A DNA stretch of 47,544 bases from Desulfococcaceae bacterium. GTDB lineage: Bacteria; Desulfobacterota; Desulfobacteria; Desulfobacterales; Desulfosalsimonadaceae. Each line of letters starts with the position of its first letter. The first letter of the stretch is position 1. The position numbers were made by a program, and so were the translations under genes. This document shows positions 2,670 through 29,151 of this stretch, one piece after another. The stretch lies in assembly GCA_030145385.1 (NCBI GenBank), contig JAQYVU010000030.1, forward strand, positions 1-47,544. Reading direction: 5' to 3'. Below the pieces are notes generated by a model. The model searched no databases, was not told where the DNA came from, and was given only the letters and a program-made list of their open reading frames with translations.

Positions 2670-3407
2670 TCACTCCCATATCTCTTTTTGTTCTCTGCCC
2701 AAATATGCCCGTTTTACTTCCTGGTTTGTCATGAGTTTGCCGGCATTTTCTTCCAGCACAATCTTACCGGTTTCAATAACATAACCCCTGTCGGCAATTT
2801 TTAATGCCGCATTGGCGTTCTGTTCGATTAAAAGCACAGTGAGTTTCCGATCCGCCTGCAACTTCGCTATCATCTGGAATATGTCCTTAATGATCAGCGG
2901 CGCCAGTCCCATGGATGGTTCGTCCAGCAGCAACAGCCTGGGGCGTGACATGAGTGCCATGGCAATGGCCAGCATCTGCTGTTCACCACCGCTTAATGTG
3001 CCAGCATACTGAGTCCGACGCTCCTTTAAAATGGGAAACAGGGCAAATGTTTGTTCAATATCCGTCTTCAACTGTTTTTTGCCGTAATGTTTATAAATTA
3101 AATACCCACCCAGTTCCAGGTTATCATAAACGGACATTGGCCGAAAAATCTGACGGCCTTCAGGCACATGGGCAATACCCATGCTCACCAGTTTTTCAGG
3201 GCTGGCACCGGTAATTTCCTGGTCGTGAAAAAAAATTTTCCCTCTCCGTACCGGCTGAAGTCCGCTGATAGTCCGGAGTGTGGTGGTTTTACCGGCCCCG
3301 TTCGCCCCAAGCATGGTCACGATTTCCCCTTCACTCACATGCATGGACACATTTTTTAAAATGTGTATCAGACCGTAATAACTGTTTACATTTACCAAAC
3401 GAAGCAT
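2670..3407 (-). CDS. livF: Branched-chain amino-acid ABC transporter ATPase LivF
   Basis: LivF is one of the two cytoplasmic ATPases that power a LIV-type importer. The 245-residue protein has Walker A GANGAGKTT (residues 34-42), the ABC signature LSGGEQQM, Walker B LLLLDEPSMGL and the family mark HVPEGRQIF, which separates LivF from LivG. It starts at ATG with only a weak ribosome site. It lies 238 bases from livG instead of the usual near-overlap, because repeat elements fill the gap. Substrate specificity cannot be read from the ATPase. The linked PaaK-like and ACT proteins leave room for an aromatic or branched-chain substrate. Confidence 0.95.
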   Translation of the reverse strand: MLRLVNVNSYYGLIHILKNVSMHVSEGEIVTMLGANGAGKTTTLRTISGLQPVRRGKIFFHDQEITGASPEKLVSMGIAHVPEGRQIFRPMSVYDNLELGGYLIYKHYGKKQLKTDIEQTFALFPILKERRTQYAGTLSGGEQQMLAIAMALMSRPRLLLLDEPSMGLAPLIIKDIFQMIAKLQADRKLTVLLIEQNANAALKIADRGYVIETGKIVLEENAGKLMTNQEVKRAYLGREQKEIWE

Positions 3408-3421
3408 AATTTTTTAGGTGT

Positions 3422-3449
3422 ATAGGTTGAAGGTTGAAGACTGAAGGCC
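3422..3449. repeat. GAAGGTTGAAG-type heptad repeat, copy 2
   Basis: The plus strand carries TAGGTTGAAGGTTGAAGACT followed by GAAGGCC, a variant of the heptad repeat seen at 2632-2658 and 33320-33353. It lies between livF and livG. Confidence 0.6.
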
Positions 3450-3479
3450 AATTTTAATGATCAAGATCAAACCACCTCA

Positions 3480-3645
3480 GTTGTTAAGTTTTATAATAGT
3501 CGCAAAAAAATCAAACCTTGACGGCAAAGTATAAAAGCTCAAATTCAAAATACGTAAAACCTTCGTAATGATAAGTACTTTTCGTACTTTGAAGCAGCGA
3601 AGGCTGCAGCGTAACGCAGAAGTTGAGTTTTTTACGAAGCCGTCA
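3480..3645. repeat. Intergenic palindromic repeat element A (livG-livF gap)
   Basis: About 165 non-coding bases with short inverted repeats, including AGTAC-TTTTC-GTACT near the middle and a TTTTTTACGAAG end abutting the livG stop. Its style resembles the elements at 17440-17560 and 29158-29306: flanking runs of A or T next to ACG, and a central short palindrome. I could not align its centre to theirs, so family membership is uncertain. Confidence 0.45.
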
Positions 3646-4407
3646 TTATTCGCCCAGATACGCCGCAATAACATCTTTATTTTCCTGGATCTCGGCAGGC
3701 GGGCCTTGGGCAATTAATCTGCCGAAGTTTATGACCGCCACATAATCCGAGATATCCATCACCAGTTCCATGTCATGTTCAACCAACAGAACCGTGATAT
3801 TCATCTGTTTGATCTTTTCGATCAGCTCGCCCATGGCAATGGTTTCCCGGGCATTTAAACCGGAAGCCGGTTCATCCAGCAGCAGCAGTTTGGGTTCAAG
3901 TGCCAATGCCCTGGCAATCTCAAGCATGCGCTGGTTCCCTAAGGGAAGACTGCCGGCAGGTGTATGCGCATATTGAGCAAGATCCAGAAAATGAAGTTGC
4001 TCTTCTGCCGCCTCATGGATTCGCTTTTCTTCTTTTCGTAAAAAAGGCGGCAATATGCAGGAATAAAAAATTCCGGCGCGTGAACGAAGATGTCGTCCGA
4101 CCATGATATTTTCGATCACACTCATTTTCGGGAAAATCTGAACATTCTGAAACGTCCGGCCAATACCGATTGACGCAATGGTATGGGGTTTCATTTTATT
4201 TACGATGCGTCCTGAAAAACGAATCTGACCGGATGATGGTTCGAGAAACCCTGTCACTAGGTTAAAAATCGTGGTTTTGCCGGCACCGTTGGGCCCGATC
4301 AGAGATGTGATGGAACCTTGTTCGATGTGCAAGGACAAATCGGAAACAGCGACAACACCGCCAAAATTTTTCCGTAACATTTCCAGTTCAAGAATACTAT
4401 TGCTCAC
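3646..4407 (-). CDS. livG: Branched-chain amino-acid ABC transporter ATPase LivG
   Basis: LivG is the second cytoplasmic ATPase of the LIV-type importer. It has Walker A GPNGAGKTT (about residues 38-46), LivG-type GIGRTFQNVQIF, the signature PLGNQRMLEIARALA and Walker B LLLLDEPASGLN. The signature motif has NQRM where LSGGQ is usual, which is normal for LivG. I start it at GTG (4407), which has GGGGGA upstream and gives an 11-base overlap with the livM stop. A longer frame reaches 4443 but begins with TTG and lacks a ribosome site. Length from GTG is 253 residues, normal for the family. Confidence 0.93.
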   Translation of the reverse strand: MSNSILELEMLRKNFGGVVAVSDLSLHIEQGSITSLIGPNGAGKTTIFNLVTGFLEPSSGQIRFSGRIVNKMKPHTIASIGIGRTFQNVQIFPKMSVIENIMVGRHLRSRAGIFYSCILPPFLRKEEKRIHEAAEEQLHFLDLAQYAHTPAGSLPLGNQRMLEIARALALEPKLLLLDEPASGLNARETIAMGELIEKIKQMNITVLLVEHDMELVMDISDYVAVINFGRLIAQGPPAEIQENKDVIAAYLGE

Positions 4408-5428
4408 GGCCGGCTGATCCCCCTGAAAACTTCTTACCTGCAAGCTTTTTCATAGACGCCTTGACAAACCCAATGGCATTGACAAGGCTAACAAATATCC
4501 CTTCCGGCAGGAAGAGCATAATAGTCAAAAGAATACCGCCATAAACCAGGGTATCATAATCCGGCTGATATTCAATGCCCAGCAACTGTAGATAATCAGA
4601 TAAAAATGATAAAAATTCGGGCAGCAGTGAAAGAAAAATGGCACCGATCAATGCGCCCCAGATATTATGCAACCCACCGACCGCCACCATGGTGACAAGA
4701 AGCACGGAGTACGAAACGTCAAATGGTCCCGGATCAATATAATTCATGTAGTACGCATACAAACTGCCGCTTACCGAGGCGAACACAGCGCTTAAAATAA
4801 ATACCTGGACTTTATAAGATGTGATGTTAATTCCTAAGGAAGCAGCCGCATCCTCACTTCCGTGAATGGCCTGCAAACCCCGCCCCACTCTTGAATTAAT
4901 CAGGTTAAACGCGATATAGACACCCAGCGCGACCACACTCCAGGAAAAATAAAAATACTGTTTATCTGAATTTAAAACATACCCGAAAAAATCAAGCCTT
5001 GGAATATTGACGAGTCCCGAAGGCCCCCCGGTCAGATCGACTGCTGCCACCGCGACAATATGGACAATGGATGCAAAACCCAGTGTCGCCATGGCAAGAT
5101 AATGCCCCTTTAATCGTAAGGCAGGAATTCCGAGACAAAACGCAATGACAATGACAAGCAAAACACCGCAAAGCATGGCAATCCAGGGAGACCAGGCAAA
5201 TTTTGCGGTTAAAATCCCTGAAGTATATGCGCCGATGGCCACAAACGCGCCATGCCCGATGGAAATCTGTCCGGCATATCCCATCAGAAGACACAGACCG
5301 ATAGATGCCAGACAGTTGAAAGCCGTAAATATCAATACGCCAAGATAATAATCATTGGTAACCAGAAACGGTATCAATATAATCGAAATGATCAGAACTA
5401 AAAATCCGGCGCTGTTTTTTCCCTTCAT
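4397..5428 (-). CDS. livM: Branched-chain amino-acid ABC transporter permease LivM
   Basis: This is one of the paired inner-membrane permeases of the LIV importer. The 343-residue protein is highly hydrophobic with about nine or ten membrane segments. It carries the family marks GYAGQISIGHGAFVAIGAYT near the N-terminus and VAVGGLHNIWGALIGA toward the C-terminus, with the EDAAASLGIN cytoplasmic coupling segment between them. ATG start with GAGG upstream. It overlaps livG by 11 bases, so the two are probably translationally coupled. It follows livH after 162 bases that hold a palindromic element. Confidence 0.95.
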   Translation of the reverse strand: MKGKNSAGFLVLIISIILIPFLVTNDYYLGVLIFTAFNCLASIGLCLLMGYAGQISIGHGAFVAIGAYTSGILTAKFAWSPWIAMLCGVLLVIVIAFCLGIPALRLKGHYLAMATLGFASIVHIVAVAAVDLTGGPSGLVNIPRLDFFGYVLNSDKQYFYFSWSVVALGVYIAFNLINSRVGRGLQAIHGSEDAAASLGINITSYKVQVFILSAVFASVSGSLYAYYMNYIDPGPFDVSYSVLLVTMVAVGGLHNIWGALIGAIFLSLLPEFLSFLSDYLQLLGIEYQPDYDTLVYGGILLTIMLFLPEGIFVSLVNAIGFVKASMKKLAGKKFSGGSAGREQ

Positions 5429-5448
5429 AGCAGCGCCTCGTCAACTCT

Positions 5449-5580
5449 AAACTGACGCATACTGCTTGTCCTTTTTCGCGCCTGCATCGTTACGACTTGA
5501 GTCGCGTAGCCCACTATGTTCCTCCAGTCGCGCCTTGCAGGCACAACAAATTACGGCGCAATCTTACGCCATTTTATCCT
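5449..5580. repeat. Intergenic palindromic repeat element B (livH-livM gap)
   Basis: Non-coding sequence with nested inverted repeats: GCCTGCA (5480-5486) pairs with TGCAGGC (5536-5542), and inside lies CGACT-TG-AGTCG. The element separates two genes that normally touch in LIV operons, so it was probably inserted. It resembles the other intergenic palindromes here in design, but its sequence differs. Confidence 0.5.
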
Positions 5581-5590
5581 TAAAGAGGCA

Positions 5591-6496
5591 CTAAAACTCT
5601 TTTAACCTCATGGCTTCTGAACTTCCAAAAATACCGCTGGGGCGAATAAACAGGACAAGCAGCAGAATCACAAGCGCAATGGCATCCATATAGTGAGATG
5701 ATATGTAACCCGCACCCAGCGCTTCTAAAATGCCTAACAGTATACCGGCAAACACTGCCCCCATACTGTTGCCAAGTCCTCCCAGGACTGCTGCGCCGAA
5801 TCCTTTCAAACCCAGCATGGCTCCTCTGGTATAATCCATCTGAATGATCGGTGTGATGATAATACCGGCAATGGCACCAATGCCTGCGGATAAAGCAAAT
5901 GACAACATGACCATTTTCCGGTCATTGATCCCGGCCAGGCGGGCGGCATCCCGATTGATGGCACAGGCGCGCATGCATTTCCCTGTCATGGTGTAATTAA
6001 AAAAGATTACATATGCAACAACAAGAAAAAACAGAATCGCGAAAATCCACAATGTCTGCGGCAAAATGGTGGCTCCGTAAAAATCAAGCGACTCCGAACT
6101 CGAAAAATGGCGCATGTAATGGGAACCTTTTCCCCAGAAACACATGGCCGCCCCTTTGATAATGATTGAAACGGCAATGGTGATGATAATCAATCGTAAA
6201 ACAGTCGGCTCTTTCACGGGATTAATGGTCAGGCGCTCCATTAAAATACCGGCAACCATGACGAATAGAACTGTCAGGATAAACGCAAAAACAATTGACA
6301 GGTTAAATGCCATTGTCAATGACACCATCATCAATCCGCCCAATACCACAAATTCACCCTGGGCGAAATTGATAATCCCGGTGGCATTATAAATCATGTT
6401 AAACCCCATTGCGACCATGGCGTAAATGCTGCCACGCTGGATTCCCATGAAAAGAAACTGAAGCACGTCAATTAAGGTGCCATCCGTATGATTCAT
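5591..6496 (-). CDS. livH: Branched-chain amino-acid ABC transporter permease LivH
   Basis: This is the other inner-membrane permease of the LIV importer, 301 residues with about eight hydrophobic segments. Family marks are GSIYAMVAMGFNMIYNATGIINFAQGEFVVLGG at the N-terminus, the cytoplasmic RACAINRDAARLAGIN coupling helix, and LKGFGAAVLGGLGNSMGAVFAG. ATG start with a weak ribosome site. It is the first permease gene after the two binding-protein genes and is separated from them by a hairpin terminator that could reduce its expression relative to the binding proteins. Confidence 0.95.
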   Translation of the reverse strand: MNHTDGTLIDVLQFLFMGIQRGSIYAMVAMGFNMIYNATGIINFAQGEFVVLGGLMMVSLTMAFNLSIVFAFILTVLFVMVAGILMERLTINPVKEPTVLRLIIITIAVSIIIKGAAMCFWGKGSHYMRHFSSSESLDFYGATILPQTLWIFAILFFLVVAYVIFFNYTMTGKCMRACAINRDAARLAGINDRKMVMLSFALSAGIGAIAGIIITPIIQMDYTRGAMLGLKGFGAAVLGGLGNSMGAVFAGILLGILEALGAGYISSHYMDAIALVILLLVLFIRPSGIFGSSEAMRLKEF

Positions 6497-6562
6497 AAAG
6501 CACGCCTATCTGGTTGTTTATCGTTTTATAAATAAATTAATTAATTGTATTTTTACATAAAA

Positions 6563-6607
6563 CTTATCCGCTGTTTATGATTTTATGCATCATCAACAGC
6601 GGATAAG
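6563..6607 (-). terminator. Intercistronic hairpin between LivK-type gene and livH
   Basis: CTTATCCGCTGTT (6563-6575) pairs perfectly with AACAGCGGATAAG (6595-6607), a 13-bp stem with a 19-base loop. On the minus strand it is followed by TTTTAT. It lies just past the stop of the second binding-protein gene. Partial termination here would leave more binding protein than permease, a common arrangement in ABC operons. Confidence 0.75.
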
Positions 6608-6641
6608 CATTTTAATTTTGATGATATTATTCAGAAAAATA

Positions 6642-7796
6642 TTAATCCTTCAGAACAACAAACGCACCGTCTTTTACGGTTAACATCTCAAATGCATCTT
6701 TGCCCAGCCCGCAGTGATCTTCCGGTGACATTTTAAATATACCGGCAGTTCCGACAAACTCGGCATTTTCTATTTCATCACGAAGTTCTGCCGGGTCATC
6801 ACCGACTTTCTTTAATGCATTTACCACAATCCACAAGGCATCATAAGCGTGGCCGCCGAAAGTGCTGACCGTATCGTTGTATGTTTTTTCATATGCTTCC
6901 TTATAATTGTCCAGCACCTTTTTCTGGGGATTATCATCCGCAACCGTATCTGCCGCAAGGAGCCTTCCACCGGGGAAAATAATCCCGTTGCCCGCTTCAC
7001 CGGCAGCAGCCGCATATTTGACATTCCCGAATCCATGGCTCTGATACAGGGGAATTGTCAATTTGAGCTGCTGCATATTCTGGGGAACAATTGACTGAGC
7101 CGGAACAATTGACCAGTTCACCAGTGCCTGGGCGCCGGCATTTTTAATTTTAAGCAACTGTGCGGTCATGTCCGTATCCGCCGGACTGTATGTTTCGTCA
7201 GCGACAATTTCAAATTTATATTCTACGGCAATATCTTTTAACTGAGCACGACCGGCAGCTCCGAAACCGGTTGTCCCGGTAATGATGCCAATTTTTGTGA
7301 TCCCTTTGGATGCCATGTGATCATAAATCCGCTTCACACAGTCACTGTCTCTTTGCGGGACTTTAAATACCCATTTCCGCTCTTGGACCGGTGTAACAAT
7401 AACCGCCGCACCCGCGCAGGATACCAGAGGAACATTTGCTTCCGCTATAACCGGGAGGACTGCCATACTCGTTCCACTTCTTGAGGGACCGATAATTGCA
7501 CACACTTTATCTTTTTTAATCAGTTTTTTTACCGCGTTTACCGTTCTGGTATTATCTCCCTGTGTATCTTCGATATGGAGAACAAGCTTGTGACCATTGA
7601 TTCCGCCGGCAGCATTTATTTCCTTTGCAATCATTTCTGCTGTGTTTCTTTCAGGTTCTCCCAGCCATGACGCTTTTCCGGTCACGGCAAAAACACATCC
7701 CACATGATATTCATCGGATTCAGCGTATAGATACGGTGTTGAAAAAGCCAATAAAAATGTAACGACCATCGACAAAATTAAAATTCTTTTTTTCAC
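6642..7796 (-). CDS. LivK-type periplasmic substrate-binding protein (copy 1)
   Basis: A periplasmic binding protein of the Peripla_BP_6/LivK family, 384 residues, with an N-terminal signal peptide ending near YLYA-ES. The mature part begins EYHVGCVFAVTGKASWLGEP and keeps the ligand-pocket region IIGPSRSGTSMA. Start is GTG with AGGAGG ten bases upstream. It is a close tandem paralogue of the gene at 8016-9164: long identical stretches include GKASWLGEPERNT, KVCAIIGPSRSGTSMA and TGFGAAGR. It presumably delivers substrate to LivHM. Which ligand is bound is not visible. Confidence 0.92.
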   Translation of the reverse strand: MKKRILILSMVVTFLLAFSTPYLYAESDEYHVGCVFAVTGKASWLGEPERNTAEMIAKEINAAGGINGHKLVLHIEDTQGDNTRTVNAVKKLIKKDKVCAIIGPSRSGTSMAVLPVIAEANVPLVSCAGAAVIVTPVQERKWVFKVPQRDSDCVKRIYDHMASKGITKIGIITGTTGFGAAGRAQLKDIAVEYKFEIVADETYSPADTDMTAQLLKIKNAGAQALVNWSIVPAQSIVPQNMQQLKLTIPLYQSHGFGNVKYAAAAGEAGNGIIFPGGRLLAADTVADDNPQKKVLDNYKEAYEKTYNDTVSTFGGHAYDALWIVVNALKKVGDDPAELRDEIENAEFVGTAGIFKMSPEDHCGLGKDAFEMLTVKDGAFVVLKD

Positions 7797-7943
7797 GGTA
7801 AAAATCCTCCTGTGCGTCTATTGTTTAAATAGTGCTCTTTACCAACATTCCCTTATATGCATAAGCCCGCATGGGACAAATTTTTAATTTTGCCGGTACC
7901 ATTTAATAAAAACTACCAGAAAGTTCTATTTCCCGTATGTGCT

Positions 7944-7977
7944 AAAAATCGGCTGCCCGTGTTGATACGGACAGCCG
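7944..7977 (-). terminator. Intrinsic terminator after the distal binding-protein gene
   Basis: CGGCTGCCCGT and ACGGACAGCCG (7950-7977) form an 11-base stem with one mismatch around a GTTGAT loop. On the minus strand the stem is followed by ATTTTTA (T run at 7944-7948). It lies 39 bases past the stop codon at 8016 and separates the tandem binding-protein genes, suggesting that the downstream copy has its own promoter or depends on read-through. Confidence 0.8.
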
Positions 7978-8015
7978 ACAAATCACTTTGGTTGTACAAA
8001 TAATTTTTTAAACCA

Positions 8016-9164
8016 TCAGTCTTTTAATACAACAAACTTACCTTCTTTAACCGTTAATACCGCAAAATCATCTTTGTCCAGGCCGCAATGGTCTTTTTCA
8101 GAGTATTCGAAAACACCGCCGACGCCGACAAAGGTAGTTTTTTCAAGTTCATCACGGAGTTTTGCCGGATCATCGCCCACTTTCTTAAGCGCGTTTACGA
8201 CCATCCAAAGGGCATCATAGGCATGACCGCCGAATGTGCTGACATGTTCGTTATACTTTGACTCATATGCCTTTTTATAAGCGGCAAGGACCGGTTTCTG
8301 GGGTTGATCATCGGCCAACGTATCCACTGCCATAATCCTGCCGGCCGGAAAAATACAACCTTCTGCTGAATCACCGGCAGCCTCGGCATATTTAATATTT
8401 GCAAACCCGTGGCTCTGATAGAGCGGAGTGGTCATCTTCAGCTGCTGCATGTTTTTGGAAACAATTGACTGTGCCGGAACAATCGACCAGTTGATAACAG
8501 CCTGAGCACCGGATTTTCTGATACGGATTAACTGGGCAGTCATGTCGGTATCTGTCGGGCTGTATGTTTCGTCAGCAATAATTTCAATGCCATATTCTCC
8601 GGCAAATTGTTTGAGCTGTTCCCGACCGGCCGCACCGAATCCGGTGGTACCGGAGATAATACCAACCTGCTTGATGCCGGTGGCATTCATATGTTCAAAA
8701 ATATTTCGCGCCGCGTCACTGTCATCCGGGCCGACTTTAAATACCCATTTTCGTTCTTCCGCCGGCGTTGTAATAACTGCGGCAGATGCGCAGGAAAGCA
8801 TTGGTATCTTAGCCTGAGTGACGACCGGAATGGCAGCCATTGATGTGCCGCTTCTGGAAGGCCCGATGATGGCACAGACTTTGTTTTTTTTGATCAGCTT
8901 TTTAATTGCATTAACCGCACGGGTATTGTCACCCTGGGTATCTTCAATATGCAAAACAAGGGGATGACCGTTAATACCGCCGGCATCATTGATTTCCTTG
9001 GCAATCATCTCAACGGTGTTCCGCTCGGGTTCGCCCAGCCATGATGCCTTTCCGGTAACTGCAAGCGCACAGCCCACATGGTAGGCTTCCGGGTTCGCGT
9101 AAATCGTTGATGCGGAAAATAACATCACACCACACAAGCAAGCTAAAAGTAAAATTCGTTTCAA
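8016..9164 (-). CDS. LivK-type periplasmic substrate-binding protein (copy 2)
   Basis: Second LivK-family binding protein, about 382 residues from a TTG start, with a signal peptide ending near STIYA-NP and a mature part nearly parallel to the neighbouring copy. An in-frame ATG lies five codons upstream (9179), but the GGAGG ribosome site falls inside that extension, just after the ATG. The TTG also gives the same MKRILLL-type signal peptide as the paralogue. The protein lies directly after the ACT-domain gene. The pair could differ in ligand or affinity. Confidence 0.9.
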   Translation of the reverse strand: MKRILLLACLCGVMLFSASTIYANPEAYHVGCALAVTGKASWLGEPERNTVEMIAKEINDAGGINGHPLVLHIEDTQGDNTRAVNAIKKLIKKNKVCAIIGPSRSGTSMAAIPVVTQAKIPMLSCASAAVITTPAEERKWVFKVGPDDSDAARNIFEHMNATGIKQVGIISGTTGFGAAGREQLKQFAGEYGIEIIADETYSPTDTDMTAQLIRIRKSGAQAVINWSIVPAQSIVSKNMQQLKMTTPLYQSHGFANIKYAEAAGDSAEGCIFPAGRIMAVDTLADDQPQKPVLAAYKKAYESKYNEHVSTFGGHAYDALWMVVNALKKVGDDPAKLRDELEKTTFVGVGGVFEYSEKDHCGLDKDDFAVLTVKEGKFVVLKD

Positions 9165-9206
9165 AATCAGCTCCTCCATTCTTTTCAGTTCAAGATAAAA
9201 TAATGA

Positions 9207-21633: not shown

Positions 21634-22188
21634 TTACCTCTTCTCAAGTTCCTTAACTTTTTTGGCAAGTGCATCGACTCGTTGAGTCAGCTCATTCACC
21701 TGGTCTTTGGATGAAAGGTTCATCACTTTAAGTCCTTCAGAAACCCGCTGATCGATATTGTCAATAATCCAGGATTTCAGGTTATTTGCAAAACCCAGAA
21801 TCTCTTTTTTTAAATTTTTCCCCTCCGATTCTGAAATTTCCTTATCGTTAACCAGACTGTTAACCAGCTTTTCGATCTCGTCTTTCGACAGGGTTAAAGC
21901 ACTTTGCCAGAGGGAAACATACTTTTTACCATACCCGAAAAGCGTCCCCCTGCCCTTACGCAGCATCTGCATCAGCACACGCGACGGAACGGCCTTATCC
22001 GTATCTGAATCTTCTCTTGCCAGCAGCTGAGAGACGATTGAAGACGTAAGATCATCTCCGGTTTCATTATCAATAATTGAGACCTCTTCACCGGACTTTA
22101 TGAGTTCTGCGAGTCGATCCATTGTCAGGTAACGCTTATCGGTCGTATCATAAAGTTTTCGATTGGCGTATTTTTTTATCAAATGCAT
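21634..22188 (-). CDS. PhaR-type regulator with phasin-like C-terminus (first copy)
   Basis: A 184-residue protein. Residues 1-60 form the PHB/PHA-accumulation-regulator DNA-binding domain (IKKYANRKLYDTTDKRYLTM, followed by ELIKSGEEVSIIDNETG). Residues about 80-184 are helical and end in a phasin-type coiled coil (LSSKDQVNELTQRVDALAKKV). In Ralstonia and Paracoccus, PhaR represses phasin genes and itself, and leaves DNA when it binds polymer granules. Start is ATG at 22188 with AGGAG seven bases upstream, and a longer frame to 22224 lacks a ribosome site. A predicted operator lies in its own promoter. With no PHA synthase nearby, the sensed granule may be neutral lipid. Confidence 0.88.
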   Translation of the reverse strand: MHLIKKYANRKLYDTTDKRYLTMDRLAELIKSGEEVSIIDNETGDDLTSSIVSQLLAREDSDTDKAVPSRVLMQMLRKGRGTLFGYGKKYVSLWQSALTLSKDEIEKLVNSLVNDKEISESEGKNLKKEILGFANNLKSWIIDNIDQRVSEGLKVMNLSSKDQVNELTQRVDALAKKVKELEKR

Positions 22189-22337
22189 ATACACTCCTGA
22201 AGATACATTTAAAACATTCATCAATTATTTAAAAAGACTGAAATGAATGAATAGTAATAATTAATTAATTTCTAAAAAGCAATCCGGAACAAAAAAAGCC
22301 AATAAGATCATGCTTATTTCCGTTAACGGAAGATAAA

Positions 22338-22368
22338 TAAATATGACGCTGCGCGTTATAAGTGTCAA
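22338..22368 (-). promoter_or_regulatory. Predicted promoter of the first PhaR-like gene with 15-bp palindromic operator
   Basis: On the minus strand, TTGACA (22368-22363) is followed after 19 bases by TATTTA (22343-22338). A palindrome, TGACGCTGCGCGTTA (22344-22358), fills the spacer. The same motif (TRACGC-N3-GCGTYA) recurs four times before the phasin gene at 27968-28117 and was not seen elsewhere in the window. Each time it is followed on the plus strand by TGTCAAGC. A repressor bound between -35 and -10 would block this promoter. The divergent lipid-synthase gene starts 119 bases away and could share control. Confidence 0.7.
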
Positions 22369-22476
22369 GCTTTTTTAAGATTTTTGATCTTTGAAATCAA
22401 AATTTCAGATTGCATTCACAATCATCCTCTGCTATTTAGTAAGGAAATTCAGATAAAATTTCTAAGGAGGCGTTTA

Positions 22477-24156
22477 ATGAAAAAACAGGTTGAAATCATG
22501 TCGAGTATTGACAATTTCTGGCTTCACATGGATCACCCAACAAACCTGATGGTCATTACAGGTTTTCTGCAATTCGACGAACCACTGGACTTTGATCGCC
22601 TGATTGAAACGTTCAAAAACCGTTTGTTATGTTACGATCGTTTTAAAAAACGGGTAGTTCGCCCCATGAGCGGCGTAGGCAATGCCATCTGGGAACTGGA
22701 CCCCAAGTTTGATATTCGTTCTCACCTCCATCGTATAGCGCTACCGTCTCCCGGAAACAAAGAAGCACTCCAGGAACTCATCAGCGATTTAACCGCAACC
22801 CCGCTTGATCCTACCAAACCGCTCTGGCAGGCCCATTACATTGAAAATTATGAAGACGGCGGATCCGTATTATTTATTCGTATTCATCACTGTATCGGGG
22901 ACGGCATTTCATTAATCCGCGTTCTGCTTTCCATGGCAGACGTAGAACCGAATGCCATCTGGACCGACAATGTCTGTGAATTAAAAGGGGAAAAAGAAGA
23001 CTCTGCTTTCTTTCCGCCTTTTGAAAAAGCATTTAAAAAAATTAACCGGGCAAAAAGACGTGCCTTCAAAGTCAGCGATTTTATTTCAAAAGAAATTGAA
23101 TCCAGCATTGCCAGGCCGTCACACATTATAGAACGCGCAAAACTTGTGGGCAAATACGCTGTTGATGCCACTGCCGTGATTAGTAAAATCCTGCTTCTGC
23201 CGGCAGACAAAAAAACCGTTTTTAAAGGCGAGCTTGGAATCCGGAAAAGCGTTGCCTACAGCGACCCGATTCCGGTTCCGGATATTAAGGCCATCGGCAA
23301 GTATTTTAACGCCACCATTAATGACATTCTTGTTTCGATGGTAACCGGCGCATTGCGGCGATACCTGCAGCAAAGCAACAACCTGGTCGGAGATCTGGAC
23401 ATTCGGGTTGCGATGCCGATCAACATCCGTCCTCTGGAATCCGAAATCAAACTGGGCAACGAGTTCAGCCTGATACTTGTCGGACTGCCGGTACATATCG
23501 ACGATCCGGTGCTCCGGATCAGGGAAGTGCAGCGCCGGATCAATGATTTGAAAGGAGCCCCGGATGCTGTTGTTGCTTATGCCTTATTAAATGCCCTCGG
23601 TGTTTCATCCGCAAAACTGGCCAAAACAGCCGCCACCCTGTTTGCCAATAAAACAACAGGTGTATTCAGCAACGTGCCAGGTCCCCGGCAACCATTATAC
23701 TTTGCCGGAAAAGAAATTAAAAATATCATGTTCTGGGTTCCCCGAATCGGCGGACTGGGTCTTGGTATCAGCATCATCAGCTATAATGGAAAAATTTCTT
23801 TAGGGATCGCCACGGATACCGGACTCGTTCATGACCCGAAAGCAATTTTAGATAATTTTGAAAATGAATACCGAATGCTGCTTGGGATGTACCGGGCCGG
23901 GCAGATTGAAAAGGATCCCCTGATTATTAATGATCGTTTTCAGGATACGGCTGAAATAACAAAAGAAGAAACCACAGGCGGGACAATCCAGGCTATCCGA
24001 TGCAAAGCGATCACCCGTGCCGGCTCCCAGTGCCACAACCGGGCGGCAACAGATTCCCTGTACTGCACAATTCACCAGAACAAGTACGAAAGCTTTGCTG
24101 ACCTGAAACCGGAATCAGACAAAAAAGACAAAAAAGACAAAACAGCATCGGCCTGA
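22477..24156 (+). CDS. WS/DGAT-family acyltransferase (wax ester synthase / diacylglycerol acyltransferase)
   Basis: This family esterifies acyl-CoA to fatty alcohols or diacylglycerol and makes the neutral lipids of bacterial storage bodies. The 559-residue protein has the catalytic HHCIGDG at residues 137-143 (HHxxxDG), an upstream PLDPTKPLWQ, and the C-terminal-domain segment GVFSNVPGPRQPLYFAG. After the normal end it carries an extra tail with Cys at about 509, 519 and 530 and His at about 533 (C-x9-C-x10-C-x2-H), then a K/D-rich end. That motif resembles small stand-alone zinc-binding domains. ATG start at 22477 with AAGGAGG; a longer frame upstream has no ribosome site. Confidence 0.92.
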   Translation: MKKQVEIMSSIDNFWLHMDHPTNLMVITGFLQFDEPLDFDRLIETFKNRLLCYDRFKKRVVRPMSGVGNAIWELDPKFDIRSHLHRIALPSPGNKEALQELISDLTATPLDPTKPLWQAHYIENYEDGGSVLFIRIHHCIGDGISLIRVLLSMADVEPNAIWTDNVCELKGEKEDSAFFPPFEKAFKKINRAKRRAFKVSDFISKEIESSIARPSHIIERAKLVGKYAVDATAVISKILLLPADKKTVFKGELGIRKSVAYSDPIPVPDIKAIGKYFNATINDILVSMVTGALRRYLQQSNNLVGDLDIRVAMPINIRPLESEIKLGNEFSLILVGLPVHIDDPVLRIREVQRRINDLKGAPDAVVAYALLNALGVSSAKLAKTAATLFANKTTGVFSNVPGPRQPLYFAGKEIKNIMFWVPRIGGLGLGISIISYNGKISLGIATDTGLVHDPKAILDNFENEYRMLLGMYRAGQIEKDPLIINDRFQDTAEITKEETTGGTIQAIRCKAITRAGSQCHNRAATDSLYCTIHQNKYESFADLKPESDKKDKKDKTASA

Positions 24157-24197
24157 TAAATTATAAAAAAGACGCCGCATAATAAATGATTAAATGA

Positions 24198-24233
24198 GAA
24201 TGCGAAGATTTATTTCTTCGCATTCTTTTTTTT
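24198..24233 (+). terminator. Intrinsic terminator of the WS/DGAT gene
   Basis: GAATGCGAAGA (24198-24208) pairs with TCTTCGCATTC (24215-24225), an 11-bp perfect stem with a six-base loop, followed by eight Ts. It lies 42 bases past the stop codon and separates the gene from the convergent ATPase gene. Confidence 0.93.
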
Positions 24234-24262
24234 GGGCTCATCTTTTTTTCATTGAAAAAATT

Positions 24263-25417
24263 TCATTCCGCCGCGTTGCTTTCAAACAGTCGGGCCAATC
24301 GATATAAATCATCCAGACTCACGATTTCGCTATCTGCGAATGGAATCTGCAAGACATTCTCCCCTGCCCCTGTTTTCGCAATCAGGCGATTAACCGATTG
24401 GGCATCATTTCCCGCCATTTTCATCATATTTTTATGGGCAGCTATCAACTTTTCCCTTAATTCCGGATCAATGCGTGCTTTTGCAAACACCTTATCCGAA
24501 TCGCGTCCCTGCAGTTCCGTGTTTGAACTTGCAACGTTTACCCGGTTTATAATAAATCCCCCAAACGGCATTTCATTGAGCCGCAATTTCTCTCTTAAAA
24601 ATATCGCTTCATCCATTGGTAAGCGCTGAGGGGTTGCCACAGCCAAAAACAGAGTTTTGCTGCCGGCAAGCAATGTTTTGACCTCAGCTGCGCGTCGGGA
24701 GAAACCTTCAAACATGATATCATCCCACAATTGCATAAAACCGGCAAAATCATCTAAAACCTGTTTTCCAAGCATCTTGCTGACACCTCTTAACACCGGT
24801 GTTGCAAGGATGTTCAGGAAGCGAACTCCCCACCTTCCGGCCTTTAGATAGGGTTTAAACATCCTCATGAAAAAATTGTAACCGAGAATATTCAACATTT
24901 TCTGGGGTGCTTCCAGAAAATCAAGTGCCCGGCGGCTGGGGGGGGTATCCAGAACAATCAGGTCATAATGATTCTGATTGAATATTTCATAAAGCTTTTC
25001 CATTGCCATATATTCATGGGAACCGGCCATATTGTTCGACAAATGCTGGTAATACCTGTTTTTGTAAATATTTTTCTGAAATTCAGGAGGCGCGTACCGG
25101 GCAATCAGTTGATCAAACGTGTGTTTGGCGTCCAGCATCATGGCATACAAATCTGCTTGAAAAGCGGGCTCGCCATTAAATGCGATGAGGTTTTCAACCG
25201 GGACCCGCTGCGCATCCGCAGCAAATCTTTTCAAACCGAGTGAATCCGCTAATCGATTGGCCGGATCAATGGTCAAAACAATTGTTTTTTTGCCGGCCAA
25301 CACACCATATAAACCGATGGCGGCAGATATTGTTGTTTTCCCGACACCGCCGCTGCCGCAGCATACGATAATTTTTGGACCGTCAGGATCCTTGATGCAA
25401 TTTAACATGCCGGTCAT
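24263..25417 (-). CDS. ArsA/Get3-family ATPase (second of a pair)
   Basis: A 384-residue SIMIBI-class ATPase. It has the deviant P-loop GSGGVGKTT at residues 21-29, switch-like LTIDPANRLADSLG, the motif VLDTPPSRRALDFLEAP and a helical middle rich in hydrophobic residues and methionine. Family members deliver hydrophobic tail-anchored proteins (Get3) or energise arsenite export (ArsA). The ArsA metal-site cysteines, a fused second ATPase half and neighbouring arsB or arsR genes are all absent, so a Get3-like hydrophobic-cargo role is more plausible. It follows its partner gene after 22 bases. The start codon is uncertain because no clear ribosome site is visible. Confidence 0.87.
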   Translation of the reverse strand: MTGMLNCIKDPDGPKIIVCCGSGGVGKTTISAAIGLYGVLAGKKTIVLTIDPANRLADSLGLKRFAADAQRVPVENLIAFNGEPAFQADLYAMMLDAKHTFDQLIARYAPPEFQKNIYKNRYYQHLSNNMAGSHEYMAMEKLYEIFNQNHYDLIVLDTPPSRRALDFLEAPQKMLNILGYNFFMRMFKPYLKAGRWGVRFLNILATPVLRGVSKMLGKQVLDDFAGFMQLWDDIMFEGFSRRAAEVKTLLAGSKTLFLAVATPQRLPMDEAIFLREKLRLNEMPFGGFIINRVNVASSNTELQGRDSDKVFAKARIDPELREKLIAAHKNMMKMAGNDAQSVNRLIAKTGAGENVLQIPFADSEIVSLDDLYRLARLFESNAAE

Positions 25418-25439
25418 AGTGCTTTTTAAAAAATTCGAA

Positions 25440-26474
25440 TTAATGACGAAGAATCAAAGACGTTAATTCCTGAATTTGATCTATTGTCAAATCATTTGTA
25501 AAGCAAAACGGTATCGCCTGAACGTGGCCGGTGGCTTTTGCATGAATTTCTTTAATATGTTTTTGCTGATCAATTCGCCGGCGGTTTAAAATCCTTGCAG
25601 ATGCGATAAGCTCGCTTACAGGGGAAAAAGAAAGATCAGGATCCTTTTTTTCAAAAATTTCAATTTGCTTCAAATCAGAAGGACTGAAAACAACCGGATA
25701 TACACAATTGATAAATGTAGCAGCAATCGGGATATTAAGCGTATCTTCAGCCATTGAATAAAATTCCACAGCTTCATTGACCGGAAGTTCTTCAGGAAGA
25801 GACACAAGAACAAGACTGGTTTTTTGATGATTTTTCAGAAGACGCTGAAGGCCGCGTATCTGGTTTGCCACCGGGCCTACACGGATCATGTTGATCAATA
25901 ACTCAGGCAGGCGCAGCAGGCTCATTGCATGGCCGGTTGCCGGCGCATCAATAATGATCAAATCATATGTTGGCGCGGCGAGGTTATCAGCCTGCTTCTC
26001 CCATCGCCACAGGCGACCGAGACTCATGACCTCCTTTAAGCCGGGAGTTGCTTCAAAAAGATAATCAAACAACCTGCTGCGAATTATTTTACCGGCAATA
26101 AATCCGGGTGAAACATGCGCACGGACATAAGCTTCCAACTCAGCTTTAGGATCAACCCGCGCACCCCATATGTTTTGCGTTAATTTCCGGGGGACTTCCG
26201 ACAGGGGCTGGTCCTGATACAGCCTTCCAATGGAATCCGTATCTCCGATTTCCGCCAGAAGTACTTTTTTGTGCATGCGCTCCGCAACACCCGCAAGGGC
26301 AATACTGATAGTTGTCTTGCCGACCCCGCCTTTTCCCATTACAAAGACCAGCCTGCCGGAGAACAACTGATCCATCCAGAGGTTTGCCGGTTCTGCTAAA
26401 ACAGATGAACCGGCAGAAATGCCGGCTGTCTTATCTCCGGGAATCCGGTGTTCATCTGTATTAATGGCTGACAT
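25440..26474 (-). CDS. ArsA/Get3-family ATPase (first of a pair)
   Basis: A 344-residue ATPase of the same family as its neighbour. P-loop GKGGVGKTT is at residues 47-55, after a roughly 35-residue polar N-terminal extension. The switch motif is IIIDAPATGHAMSLLRLP. The two proteins differ in their middle helices, suggesting a heterodimer rather than a recent duplication. Paired Get3-like ATPases are known in actinobacteria (Rv3679/Rv3680 of M. tuberculosis). Here the pair sits between two phasin-like genes and a neutral-lipid synthase, so one inferred role is handling hydrophobic lipid-body proteins. ATG start with a weak ribosome site, 28 bases after the PhaR/phasin gene. Confidence 0.87.
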   Translation of the reverse strand: MSAINTDEHRIPGDKTAGISAGSSVLAEPANLWMDQLFSGRLVFVMGKGGVGKTTISIALAGVAERMHKKVLLAEIGDTDSIGRLYQDQPLSEVPRKLTQNIWGARVDPKAELEAYVRAHVSPGFIAGKIIRSRLFDYLFEATPGLKEVMSLGRLWRWEKQADNLAAPTYDLIIIDAPATGHAMSLLRLPELLINMIRVGPVANQIRGLQRLLKNHQKTSLVLVSLPEELPVNEAVEFYSMAEDTLNIPIAATFINCVYPVVFSPSDLKQIEIFEKKDPDLSFSPVSELIASARILNRRRIDQQKHIKEIHAKATGHVQAIPFCFTNDLTIDQIQELTSLILRH

Positions 26475-26502
26475 TCAAAAACCGGGAAAAATTTATATAT
26501 GG

Positions 26503-27147
26503 TTATTTTGTCGCTTTTTTGGACGCTGCAGCTTTTTTTGGCGTGGCTGAAGTTTTTGCTTTTTCGAGTTTTGTAATTTTATTATTCAACGACTTGATTT
26601 TTGTTGTCAGATCCAGAACCTGATCCCTGTTGGCAAGGTTCATTTTATTGAGGACTTCGTTAATCCGATGATCAATGTTATTAGTAATCCAGCTTTGAAT
26701 ATTATCGCGATATTTGAGTATTTCTTTTTTCAGTTTTTTTGCTTCAAATTCTGAAATTTTGTTATCTTTGACCAGCAAATTAACCACTTTGTCGACCTCT
26801 TCCTTGGACATGGTCAACATTTCCTGCCACATCGAAGAATATTTCTTACCATAATCCGACAGAGTGTCGCCGCCTTTACGGAAAAGCTGGACGATAAAGC
26901 TGGCCGGTTCCTGCTTTTTCTTTGCAGCAGCTGTTTTTTTTGCTTTGGGTTTCTGCTTACCGGATTTTGCTTCCTTGGCCTTGATCTGTGAGACTACTTC
27001 TTTAGTAATATCCGTTCCGGACTTTGTATCAATGATCTCAATCTTTTTTTTGGAACGAATTAATTCAGAAATCTGGGAGCGTGTGATGTAATTTTTTGTA
27101 ACGGTATCGTAAAATCGACCATTGGCATATTTTTTTATAGTATACAT
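26503..27147 (-). CDS. PhaR-type DNA-binding head fused to a PhaF-like phasin with basic tail
   Basis: A 214-residue paralogue of the protein at 21634-22188. The PHA-regulator domain occupies residues 1-60 (IKKYANGRFYDTVTKNYITR). After a lysine-rich insert (KQKPKAKKTAAAKK) come a phasin-like helical region (about 80-175) and a coiled coil (LANRDQVLDLTTKIKSLNNK). The end is an Ala/Lys tail (TPKKAAASKKATK) like the histone-like AAKP tail of Pseudomonas PhaF. Such a protein could tie granules to the nucleoid as well as regulate. ATG start with AGGAGG. It heads the operon containing both ATPases. No copy of the 15-bp operator was seen directly upstream of it. Confidence 0.85.
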   Translation of the reverse strand: MYTIKKYANGRFYDTVTKNYITRSQISELIRSKKKIEIIDTKSGTDITKEVVSQIKAKEAKSGKQKPKAKKTAAAKKKQEPASFIVQLFRKGGDTLSDYGKKYSSMWQEMLTMSKEEVDKVVNLLVKDNKISEFEAKKLKKEILKYRDNIQSWITNNIDHRINEVLNKMNLANRDQVLDLTTKIKSLNNKITKLEKAKTSATPKKAAASKKATK

Positions 27148-27265
27148 CCGGACCTCCTTTAGCGTGCATTAATTCAAATTGATTAAAAATATATTTTGAA
27201 GAAATTTGAATAAATATATCACAAAAAAACTAAAAACAAAATATCGGATATCTTATTCAGTTAAA

Positions 27266-27296
27266 ACGGCGGCCCGCACTAAGTGAGAACCGCCGT
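27266..27296 (-). terminator. Probable terminator after the phasin gene
   Basis: ACGGCGG (27266-27272) pairs with CCGCCGT (27290-27296), with a palindromic CACTTAGTG-like loop. On the minus strand only four Ts follow. It lies 15 bases past the phasin stop, so some read-through into the PhaR/phasin-ATPase operon is possible. Confidence 0.6.
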
Positions 27297-27310
27297 CGTA
27301 TCATATCTTA

Positions 27311-27862
27311 TTATGCTGTCTTCTGTTTTTTCATTGTTTCAATATTTGTATTTAATGCCTGCATGGCCATGGTCAGTTTTTCGATTTCACCTTTGTTCGG
27401 CATGTTGACAAAGCCCGGCAGAGAATTCAGGCCTTCAGTGACTTTCTTTTCAACCGTTTCCACCATGGGAATTTTATACATAAACTTTTTACCGTTAACC
27501 ACGACTTCATCAAGTTTTTTAAGGGCGTCTTTTTCTAAATCACGGCCTTTTGCCAGAACGTCGTCAACGGTTTTGGTAGCTTTCTTATACGGACCATCAA
27601 AATATTCTTTGCCTTTTTCAAGGTTTTTTACAACGTACTTCTCATTGTATTCCTTGAAGGTCTCTTTACCCTTTTCAATATTTTTGGCAACGTATTTTTC
27701 ATTGTACTCTTTGAAAGTTTTCTTTCCCTTTTCGATATTTTCCGCCAGATACTTCTCATTGTAGTCTTTGATTTTTTCTGTGACAGTATCAGATGCTTTC
27801 TGAATTTTTTCCACGATTACATTGTTTTTCACTTCTTCTTTTTTTGCTTCTTTCTTAGCCAT
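27311..27862 (-). CDS. Phasin-like granule coat protein with three 19-residue repeats
   Basis: A 183-residue, lysine- and glutamate-rich, wholly helical protein without signal peptide. Residues 32-50, 51-69 and 70-88 are three tandem 19-residue units of the form KEYNEKYVAKNIEKGKETF. Their aromatic and aliphatic residues could face one side of an amphipathic helix. The C-terminus (VNMPNKGEIEKLTMAMQALN) matches the coiled-coil end of phasins and of the two PhaR-type neighbours. Phasins coat storage granules and are often the main target of PhaR. Two predicted promoters carrying PhaR-region palindromes precede it. ATG start with GGAGGG. Confidence 0.78.
   Translation of the reverse strand: MAKKEAKKEEVKNNVIVEKIQKASDTVTEKIKDYNEKYLAENIEKGKKTFKEYNEKYVAKNIEKGKETFKEYNEKYVVKNLEKGKEYFDGPYKKATKTVDDVLAKGRDLEKDALKKLDEVVVNGKKFMYKIPMVETVEKKVTEGLNSLPGFVNMPNKGEIEKLTMAMQALNTNIETMKKQKTA
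27599..27769 (-). repeat. Three tandem 57-bp coding repeats in the phasin-like gene
   Basis: These encode residues 32-88, three consecutive 19-residue units that differ at only a few positions. Unit number could vary between strains by slippage or recombination. This is coding sequence, not a CRISPR array. Confidence 0.85.
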
Positions 27863-27967
27863 GGTAATACCCTCCTGAAAAATTGTTTTTATGACGTATA
27901 TGTTAAATATCTATCAGACCTGTTTGTATTTCAAATTCTTTAAATTCGTGCTGCCGAACGACATTGA

Positions 27968-28012
27968 TGACGCGTTGCGTTACAATCTATAACGCAACGC
28001 GTCATATGTCAA
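27968..28012 (-). promoter_or_regulatory. Predicted phasin promoter P1 with two palindromic operators
   Basis: On the minus strand, TTGACA (28012-28007) and TAGATT (27989-27984) are 17 bases apart. The palindrome TAACGCAACGCGTCA (27990-28004) lies in the spacer. Its exact reverse complement lies at 27968-27982, over the expected transcription start, with centres 22 bp apart (two helical turns). This is a classic repression layout. The leader to the phasin ATG is about 105 bases. Confidence 0.75.
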
Positions 28013-28077
28013 GCACTTTGTTAAAAAAAACTTACTTCGAGGAGACAAAAAAATTAGTTTATTGTTAAATAAAAACA

Positions 28078-28127
28078 TAACGCGATGCGTTATGTGTATG
28101 TATGACGCAATGCGTTATCCCTGTCAA
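28078..28127 (-). promoter_or_regulatory. Predicted upstream phasin promoter P2 with two further operators
   Basis: A second TTGACA (28127-28122) is followed after 19 bases by TACATA, with TGACGCAATGCGTTA (28103-28117) in the spacer. Just downstream is TAACGCGATGCGTTA (28078-28092), whose arms extend to a 9-base perfect inverted repeat (28075-28095). The 3' flank TGTCAAGCA-TTTT is shared with P1. The 395-base gap also contains a candidate plus-strand TTGACA (28171-28176) for the divergent patatin-like gene. Confidence 0.65.
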
Positions 28128-28257
28128 GCATTTTATTAAAAAAAAATTATTTTATTTATATCAAACCGAATTGACATGAATAATTTCATAGACTAAGTTG
28201 AACCTGAATTGACTTAGGTCGATGCATTAAAGACATTTGAACTTATACGGAGGCATA

Positions 28258-29151
28258 ATGAAACGAGCTTTAATTCTATCCGGCGGCGGAGCCAGAGGCG
28301 CTTTTCAAGTCGGCGTCATGAAGTACCTGAGCGAAATCAACTGGACACCCGACCTGATCTGCGGCACATCCGTCGGCGCCATTAACGCCGTGGCATACGG
28401 CTCCGGAATGTCAATCAACGATATGACAAGATTGTGGCAGACCTATCGCCGGAAAAAAATGTATCGCGTCACGCTGCCGATTTTACTTCGTTCATTGAAA
28501 AGCCGAAAACGATTCTCCCCGATGTCTGACACCCGGCCTCTAAAAAAACTGCTTGAATCGCACTTAAACATAGAAGCCCTCCGAACCAGTAAACCGGAAA
28601 TAATTATCAGCACCCTGAACATGATTACCGGCCAGCTTGCATACTTTAACCAGCATGCCATTAAAATAAAACACATTATGGCGGCAAGCGCTATTCCCGG
28701 CCTGTTCGGCTGGCAGTATATCGACAATGTTCCCTATTGGGACGCCGGGCTCATGGTTAACACACCGATTGCCCCGGCGCTCAAACTGGAGGCAAAAGAA
28801 ATAATCGTCGTACTGCATTCTCCGGTTGGCGCCTTTAATACCAGAGAACCGCGGAGCCCCATGGAAGTGGCAGAGCTTGTTTTCGAACATTTTCTGATCG
28901 GCTCTTATACCAACTCCCTGCCTGATTCTTCATGGCAGATCAACCCGGATGCCCATTGCCATAAAACCCCGTTGCCCAATTCCCCACAGCTTCAGCTTGC
29001 CGCAAAAGGCACACGGATTTTAACGGTTGCACCGGCCCGCATGCTTGGACTTCGATCGCTGCTTAATTTTTCTCTCCGTCAGGCAAACACCCTGATTGAC
29101 GAGGGGTACAATAACGCCCGGATGCAGCTGAAACCGAATTTGCAAAATTAA
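28258..29151 (+). CDS. Patatin-like phospholipase / lipid acyl hydrolase
   Basis: A 297-residue patatin-fold protein, with the oxyanion loop GGGARG (residues 9-14), nucleophile Ser38 in GTSVG and catalytic Asp162 in the DAG motif. The Ser-Asp dyad hydrolyses ester bonds of phospholipids or neutral lipids. No signal peptide is visible, so it acts in the cytoplasm or on the inner membrane. It lies divergent from the phasin gene and could mobilise stored lipid, but this is inferred from context only. ATG at 28258 with CGGAGG upstream; a longer TTG frame lacks a ribosome site. Confidence 0.87.
   Translation: MKRALILSGGGARGAFQVGVMKYLSEINWTPDLICGTSVGAINAVAYGSGMSINDMTRLWQTYRRKKMYRVTLPILLRSLKSRKRFSPMSDTRPLKKLLESHLNIEALRTSKPEIIISTLNMITGQLAYFNQHAIKIKHIMAASAIPGLFGWQYIDNVPYWDAGLMVNTPIAPALKLEAKEIIVVLHSPVGAFNTREPRSPMEVAELVFEHFLIGSYTNSLPDSSWQINPDAHCHKTPLPNSPQLQLAAKGTRILTVAPARMLGLRSLLNFSLRQANTLIDEGYNNARMQLKPNLQN

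Follow-up and report, generated by a model that had tools for sequence, protein, structure and literature searches.

The window analyzed here is a stretch of 47,544 nucleotides from a Desulfococcaceae bacterium (contig JAQYVU010000030.1, C34 in the 5.24 Mb draft genome, which is 97.04% complete). Its positions 21,634 to 29,151 carry seven genes encoding two PhaR-like proteins, a wax ester synthase/diacylglycerol acyltransferase (WS/DGAT), two Get3/ArsA-like ATPases, a phasin-like protein, and a patatin-like lipase. We favor, with moderate confidence, the reading that the storage of neutral lipid, most likely wax ester, is run from this locus by a sensor circuit of the PhaR type that is distinct from the polyhydroxyalkanoate (PHA) circuit of the cell. 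The palindrome ATRACGC-N3-GCGTYAT, proposed here from sequence comparison as the operator-like element of this PhaR class, is new. In some sulfate reducers, the cluster appears to make a wax-like storage fat and to have its protein coat controlled by a relative of the bioplastic-granule sensor via a DNA switch of its own. For anaerobic sulfate reducers, this offers a control circuit of neutral-lipid storage that can be tested, with a proposed operator defined to the base, and, if the reading is true, two related storage sensors that naturally differ in their DNA targets. An earlier note, made from the letters of this DNA alone, had suggested a PHA-type control circuit for wax ester or triacylglycerol (TAG) bodies; it is partly supported, by the linkage of the genes and by an operator with a PhaR-type core before both the phasin-like and the WS/DGAT gene, but the circuit is not confined to wax and the ATPases accompany WS/DGAT in only 10 of 80 loci.

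In the proposed mechanism, WS/DGAT would make the storage lipid, most likely wax ester, the repeat-containing phasin-like protein would coat the lipid body, and the patatin is a candidate for lipid mobilization. PhaR-like protein 1 would repress its own gene and the WS/DGAT, phasin-like, and patatin genes by binding the palindrome at their promoters. A growing lipid body would then take up the phasin-like tail of PhaR-like 1 and free the promoters, by analogy with PHA granules and PhaR. The operator is unlike the GTGC-N3-GCA box next to the canonical phaR genes of the cell, which would hold the two storage circuits apart. For the ATPase pair, a role in the handling of amphipathic coat proteins is possible. 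The genes, their synteny, the operator, and its distribution are read directly from the sequences; we infer DNA binding, repression, sensing, the identity of the lipid, the insulation of the circuits, and the role of the ATPases.

Proposed operator palindrome in the control regions

The palindrome was spotted by eye in 13 control regions between the genes of PhaR-like 1 and WS/DGAT. With up to two mismatches allowed, the window contains five sites (0.41 expected), all confined to two divergent control regions, and the inner 15-mer occurs five times as an exact match (0.01 expected). One site (ATGACGCTGCGCGTTAT, 22,343..22,359) is located between PhaR-like 1 and WS/DGAT and four between the phasin-like and the patatin gene (27,967..27,983, with one mismatch to the 17-mer and an exact inner 15-mer; 27,989..28,005; 28,077..28,093; 28,102..28,118). 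The site at 22,343 covers the spacer and the first bases of the −10 element of a promoter match directed toward PhaR-like 1 (TTGACA-17-CATATT), and the site at 27,989 lies over the spacer of a match directed toward the phasin-like gene (TTGACA-17-TAGATT); promoter matches of the TTGACA type number 27 in the region (15.2 expected). The entire genome contains six exact 15-mers, five of them in the window and the sixth within an open reading frame (ORF). Eleven genomes of the same genus have 2 to 6 operator sites each, compared with 0 to 3 for a reversed control. A different palindrome (CCGTTAACGG) in the control region at 22.3 kb was dropped, as only the window among the 13 regions contained it; the locus L100 has the inner CGTTAACG.

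Further loci were collected by scanning species genomes with the PhaR-like 1 alignment, restricted to the peptide N[RG]K[LM]YDTxxK; of 235 confirmed relatives, the best 80 were kept, many of whose loci end at contig ends. In 81 loci (1.16 Mb), 95 operator sites were found; each of five other palindromes gave one site or none, and changing the spacing to 2 or 4 gave none. Among 93 distinct sites, 80 are intergenic, and 68 of these 80 have the middle bases RNY, as does the S. meliloti PhaR palindrome in the part of the source available (PMC12542648); 19 pairs of neighboring sites have starts 22 to 27 bases apart. When sites in divergent control regions were scored for both flanking genes, the operator was found in the 13 discovery loci upstream of the genes for the phasin-like protein (9/9), WS/DGAT (11/13), PhaR-like 1 (10/12), and patatin (8/10), and of none of 56 other genes. 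Scored in the same way, the loci not used for the discovery have it before 32 of 36 genes for the phasin-like protein and 16 of 26 for WS/DGAT, compared with 21 of 405 other genes; the counts were 0/11 for PhaR-like 2, 2/23 for FFLEELY-type, 1/26 for dehydrogenase, and 2/18 for hydrolase genes.

The same distribution appears in a census of 116 genomes of the order, with a hand-set threshold of ≥85 bits for long PhaR. The 32 genomes with long PhaR contain 101 operator sites, the 26 with canonical PhaR only 11, and the 58 without PhaR 22 (3.16 per genome versus 0.42 and 0.38), and the reversed palindrome gave 9, 12, and 27 in these classes. As described in the available parts of the sources, the published PhaR boxes are CTGCNNNGCAG in R. 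sphaeroides and a palindrome with a YGCRNYGCR core in S. meliloti (PMC12542648), YTKNTGCRNYGCANMAR in R. eutropha (PMC12849132), NGCN3GC[GA] in B. diazoefficiens (PMC10888616), and TGNTGCN3GCAA in H. seropedicae (PMC3206438); they have the GC-N3-GC core in common with the operator of the window. Alternatively, another regulator might bind the palindrome, its co-occurrence with long PhaR being incidental. We regard this as very improbable, because the palindrome agrees with published PhaR boxes in core and spacing and tracks the genomes with long PhaR, not those with canonical PhaR.

Canonical phaR genes appear to use a different box. In the 350 bp upstream of 12 canonical phaR loci of the order, GTGC-N3-GCA was found at eight, including the two loci of the genome studied here (a raw count), and ACGC-N3-GCGT beside none of the 12. 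A canonical-type GTGC-N3-GCA box has a single match in the window (4.54 expected). The DNA-binding heads differ as well: in an alignment of 30 members of the PhaR-like 1 family (A1), picked by identity and not by the scan peptide, lysine occupies residue 30 in 30/30 and residue 23 in 27/30 sequences. At these two positions, canonical PhaR has S and R, in 10 of 12 rows each; two of these rows lack the anchor of the alignment motif. A lysine count of 75/75 from the peptide-limited scan was not used; it is circular, because the scan peptide fixes two lysines.

Conserved neighborhood and predicted wax-ester genes of relatives

The relatives comprise one Planctomycetota metagenome-assembled genome and otherwise Desulfobacterota-type or unspecified proteobacterial records, among them Desulfamplus magnetovallimortis (L128), Desulfatibacillum alkenivorans, Desulfocicer vacuolatum, and Olavius algarvensis symbionts; several genomes are present both among the best 80 loci and in the order census. 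WS/DGAT was matched in 35 of these 80 loci, ATPases in 14, and reductase-like genes in 25; WS/DGAT is accompanied by ATPases in 10 and by a reductase in 21, and all three occur together in none. The whole gene order (patatin, phasin-like, PhaR-like 2, ATPase A, ATPase B, WS/DGAT, PhaR-like 1) recurs in seven of the 80 when unmatched ORFs are skipped, and chance neighbors were rejected on this ground. A scan of 297 genomes of the phylum for matches of ≥150 bits returned three genomes of the order (G000, G067, G053) and two outside it (G120, G191). With its 35 WS/DGAT loci, the neighborhood is conserved past one strain, and the co-occurrence search that the earlier note had suggested links PhaR-headed, phasin-like, WS/DGAT, and patatin genes in several families of the order, but the ATPases only in the 10 loci mentioned.

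In other families, the neighborhood takes in further genes. Five relatives (L013, L014, L017, L018, L019) add two proteins of approximately 700 residues, an iron alcohol dehydrogenase, and an FFLEELY-type protein, as found by BLAST to the L017 proteins, and all of them except L013 also an alpha/beta hydrolase. The C-terminal half of the two large L017 proteins matches models of long-chain acyl-acyl carrier protein (ACP) reductase and PigE below their cut-offs, one of the two matches the solved structures 6jzq, 6jzu, and 4ppm, and the iron alcohol dehydrogenase of L017 carries an SCP2 domain. The simplest reading of these genes is a predicted pathway from acyl chain via aldehyde and alcohol to wax ester. 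Since genes for fatty alcohol formation are located at the relatives' locus, wax ester is likelier than TAG. The genome studied here has three reductase-like genes, on contigs C78, C70, and C25. The one on C70 (L073:2053-6495) adjoins ferredoxin-like and glycerol-kinase-like genes, both named by eye.

PHA synthase and the range of the proposed circuit

The earlier note had described a locus without a PHA synthase and proposed to check the genome for phaC. Its statement is true of the locus only: three PhaC_N matches were found outside it, two on C42 and one on C11, and the reading that the genome has no phaC was rejected. In addition to the two of the window, the contigs C11 and C31 carry PhaR-domain genes. 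As judged from the PhaC_N matches on C42 and C11, the cell can probably make PHA, and the locus of the window is separate. Two stores in one cell are plausible in view of multicellular magnetotactic bacteria, which we take to belong to the group of the window. Polyhydroxybutyrate and triglyceride have both been seen in these by Raman, according to the available part of the report (PMC11239054).

Of the 116 census genomes, 32 have long PhaR, 17 WS/DGAT, 20 a reductase-like gene, and 52 PhaC_N. Long PhaR is present in 14 of the 17 WS/DGAT genomes (p 4.6 ∙ 10−7; by family 2.0 ∙ 10−6) and the reductase-like gene in 16 of them (p 4.6 ∙ 10−15; by family 1.7 ∙ 10−13). Where WS/DGAT and long PhaR occur together, they lie within 10 kb on one contig in eight genomes and on different contigs in six. 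Two genomes with both (G062 and G068, 88% and 75% complete) have no PhaC_N match. PhaC_N is found in 48 of 49 genomes with canonical PhaR (p 1.1 ∙ 10−26), a tighter association than with long PhaR (24 of 32, p 5.7 ∙ 10−5). The latter figure and PhaC_N in the same genome as the window would suit PhaR-like and phasin-like proteins that serve PHA granules, with WS/DGAT as a neighbor under the same starvation signal, and the published PhaR proteins and phasins do act on PHA. This explanation is unlikely, since PhaC_N goes more tightly with canonical than with long PhaR, eight of the 12 canonical phaR loci have the GTGC-N3-GCA box and none has ACGC-N3-GCGT, and the operator stands before WS/DGAT itself.

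Several observations weigh against or limit a neutral-lipid circuit as favored here, in addition to the three PhaC_N matches. PhaC_N is present in 15 of the 17 WS/DGAT genomes and WS/DGAT is absent from 18 of the 32 genomes with long PhaR; the circuit is therefore not for wax esters alone. Long PhaR is found with no WS/DGAT, PhaC_N, or reductase-like match in five genomes (G022, G037, G042, G067, G071), which indicates further uses of the circuit. In the loci not used for the discovery, the operator stands upstream of only 13 among 70 long-PhaR genes and of none among 21 patatin genes, so that autoregulation and control of patatin are not general; likewise, it precedes 0/45 reductase-like genes, 0/12 genes for ATPase A, and 0/15 for ATPase B. 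Of the 93 distinct sites, 13 lie within ORFs, and the window site before WS/DGAT has the middle bases TGC, not RNY. The window itself has no reductase and dehydrogenase genes. At least seven of the 10 loci in which, out of 80, ATPases stand beside WS/DGAT belong to the window's own genus or family, G105 among them. The AlphaFold model of PhaR-like 1 is weak (mean predicted local distance difference test 62.3), and a fold search against the PDB gave no match at E 0.001.

Long PhaR might instead serve a general lipid circuit, sensing hydrophobic surfaces or excess acyl chains, with a regulon that varies by species and wax as one outcome. In G067, which has no WS/DGAT, sites precede phasin-like, acyl-CoA-dehydrogenase-like, and esterase-like genes (the latter two by eye), in G006 a site precedes an acyl-CoA-ligase-like gene (named by eye), and long PhaR also occurs beside genes resembling a transporter cluster of the window. 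We consider such a circuit quite improbable. The most constant target is the phasin-like gene (32/36), which points to a coated body, and some sites have no apparent relation to lipids: one in G067 precedes a ribonucleotide-reductase-like gene, and several in G074 are located within or close to short ORFs. The latter genome (L193 to L200) has ten exact operator 15-mers, perhaps as part of a dispersed repeat.

Comparison with known systems

The neutral-lipid circuit favored here resembles the PhaR/phasin (PhaP) circuit of PHA granules in the PHB_acc_N DNA-binding head and in an operator with a YGC-N3-GCR core before a phasin-type gene. It differs in its half-sites (ACGC/GCGT versus TGC/GCA), in a tail below the Pfam phasin cut-off, and in a locus without PHA synthase, with WS/DGAT as a likely target. 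According to the available parts of the sources, two PhaR operator copies precede phaP1 and phaP2 in S. meliloti (PMC12542648), PhaR sites lie beside promoter elements (PMC12849132), and PhaR leaves its promoters upon granule formation (PMC12849132; PMC3079617). A second system, likened by its description, is MLDS/MLDSR of Rhodococcus jostii, in which a DNA-binding regulator controls the gene of the major coat protein and is taken up, and thereby titrated, by neutral-lipid droplets in the manner of PhaR by granules; PhaR is not mentioned in the available part of the MLDSR account (PMC5504291). The anatomy of the locus fits this titration logic of PhaR and MLDSR, with neutral lipid as the putative signal.

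Bacterial wax-ester clusters likewise combine WS/DGAT with fatty acyl reductase genes but differ from the loci of the relatives, whose reductase is of the acyl-ACP reductase/PigE type. For Pseudomonadota of polar sediments, a scaffold that combines WS/DGAT with a putative phasin gene has already been reported, and the available part of that account mentions no PhaR-like proteins, ATPases, or operator (PMC10351704). The earlier note had known of no description of the gene combination as one system, and a full-text literature search, with most subscription journals outside its reach, found no account of it among the papers listed. Tentatively, we propose that a PhaR class might have been rewired from PHA granules to wax-ester bodies, with head and operator changing together (TGC-N3-GCA to CGC-N3-GCG), that two insulated circuits of common descent might coexist per cell, and that the Get3-like ATPase pair might deliver coat proteins.

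Genes of the locus

All seven genes correspond to ORFs of the list and its translations within 21,634 to 29,151, and the families named in the earlier note hold for the two PhaR-headed proteins, WS/DGAT, the two ATPases, and the patatin. PhaR-like 1, the proposed sensor/repressor (21,634..22,188, minus strand), has a PHB_acc_N head (PF07879, 77.3 bits, E 9.7 ∙ 10−22, cut-off 25) and a phasin-like tail (PF05597, 23.8 bits, under the cut-off of 28.8). Its ORF (21,634-22,224) opens with TTG at 22,224, and the conserved ATG at 22,188 is the likely start. When its alignment was searched as a profile against solved structures, all 12 matches were to coiled-coil and BRICK1-type chains. PhaR-like 2 (26,503..27,147, minus strand) matches PF07879 with 66.2 bits (E 2.9 ∙ 10−18, cut-off 25) and its tail PF05597 with 19.1 bits, below 28.8; glycine replaces a conserved arginine of the DNA-binding head in 12 of 12 aligned homologues. 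Both remain below the PhaR equivalog model TIGR01848 (73.1 and 56.3 bits, cut-off 109.45).

The phasin-like protein (27,311..27,862, minus strand) contains the three 19-residue units for which it had been called a repeat phasin. The second half of this name is less secure, as no Pfam family, PF05597 included, matches at E 0.01, and the PHA granule protein model TIGR01837 is matched only weakly (E 0.017). At E 0.1, this model matches all 15 members of the phasin-like alignment; six homologues score 17.8 to 27.7 with PF05597 (cut-off 28.8), and a profile comparison pairs the family with the PhaR-like tail at a high probability (95.4). WS/DGAT (22,477..24,156, plus strand) scores 367.4 with TIGR02946 (cut-off 309.95, E 1.1 ∙ 10−109); within the ORF 22,384-24,156, the likely start is the ATG at 22,477, which is preceded by AAGGAGG. 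The motif HHxxxDG is present in 17/17 aligned WS/DGAT (A2), as HHCIGDG in the window. A zinc-finger-like tail, C-x-A-x-T-x-x-G-x-x-C ... C-x-x-H, ends 14 of these 17 proteins (24,001-24,075 in the window); Pfam matches were weak for three such tails. The patatin-like lipase (28,258..29,151, plus strand; PF01734, 94.5 bits versus 27.7, E 1.2 ∙ 10−26) has the motifs GGGARG, GTSVG, and DAG; its ORF (28,237-29,151) opens with TTG at 28,237, and the ATG at 28,258 is the likely start. A terminator-like hairpin, by consensus match only, lies where the WS/DGAT and ATPase B genes converge (24,196..24,227); eight such hairpins were found across the region versus 9.5 expected.

ATPase pair and neighboring genes

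ATPase B (BagB-like; 24,263..25,417, minus strand) and ATPase A (BagA-like; 25,440..26,474, minus strand) have the P-loops GSGGVGKTT and GKGGVGKTT, respectively, and match PF02374 (ArsA_ATPase) with 93.0 and 95.8 bits for the two proteins (cut-off 24.3). The Get3/TRC40 model TIGR00345 is not reached (86.6 and 89.5, cut-off 135). The pair is asymmetric: GKGG is found in at least 23 of 25 A proteins and GSGG in 25 of 28 B proteins, three having no match, and some genomes enter these counts twice. It resembles BagA/BagB (Rv3679/Rv3680), which are likewise adjacent ATPases of the ArsA fold and provide the best NCBIfam matches, but remains under both cut-offs (NF053621 for B, 287.8 bits versus 521; NF053622 for A, 115 versus 400) and adjoins phasin-like genes. 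BagA/BagB have been tied to glycerol and nitric oxide toxicity in the available part of the source (PMC10597346). At least 12 of the 116 census genomes have the pair, and seven of those listed also have WS/DGAT. In L016, L020, and L021, it adjoins PhaR-like genes with no WS/DGAT nearby, and in L020 it stands beside a Pfam-level phasin; the link may thus be to coat proteins, not to wax esters.

In the same-genus genome G105, a gene for a PemK/MazF-type toxin (L012:4133-4705) lies within the conserved neighborhood; the window has no ORF of ≥70 amino acids at this place. A cluster at 2,670-9,179 of the window encodes a transporter of the liv type, as judged by eye, and similar genes were found in the long-PhaR loci L061 to L063, L154, L164, and L168, which belong to several other genomes.

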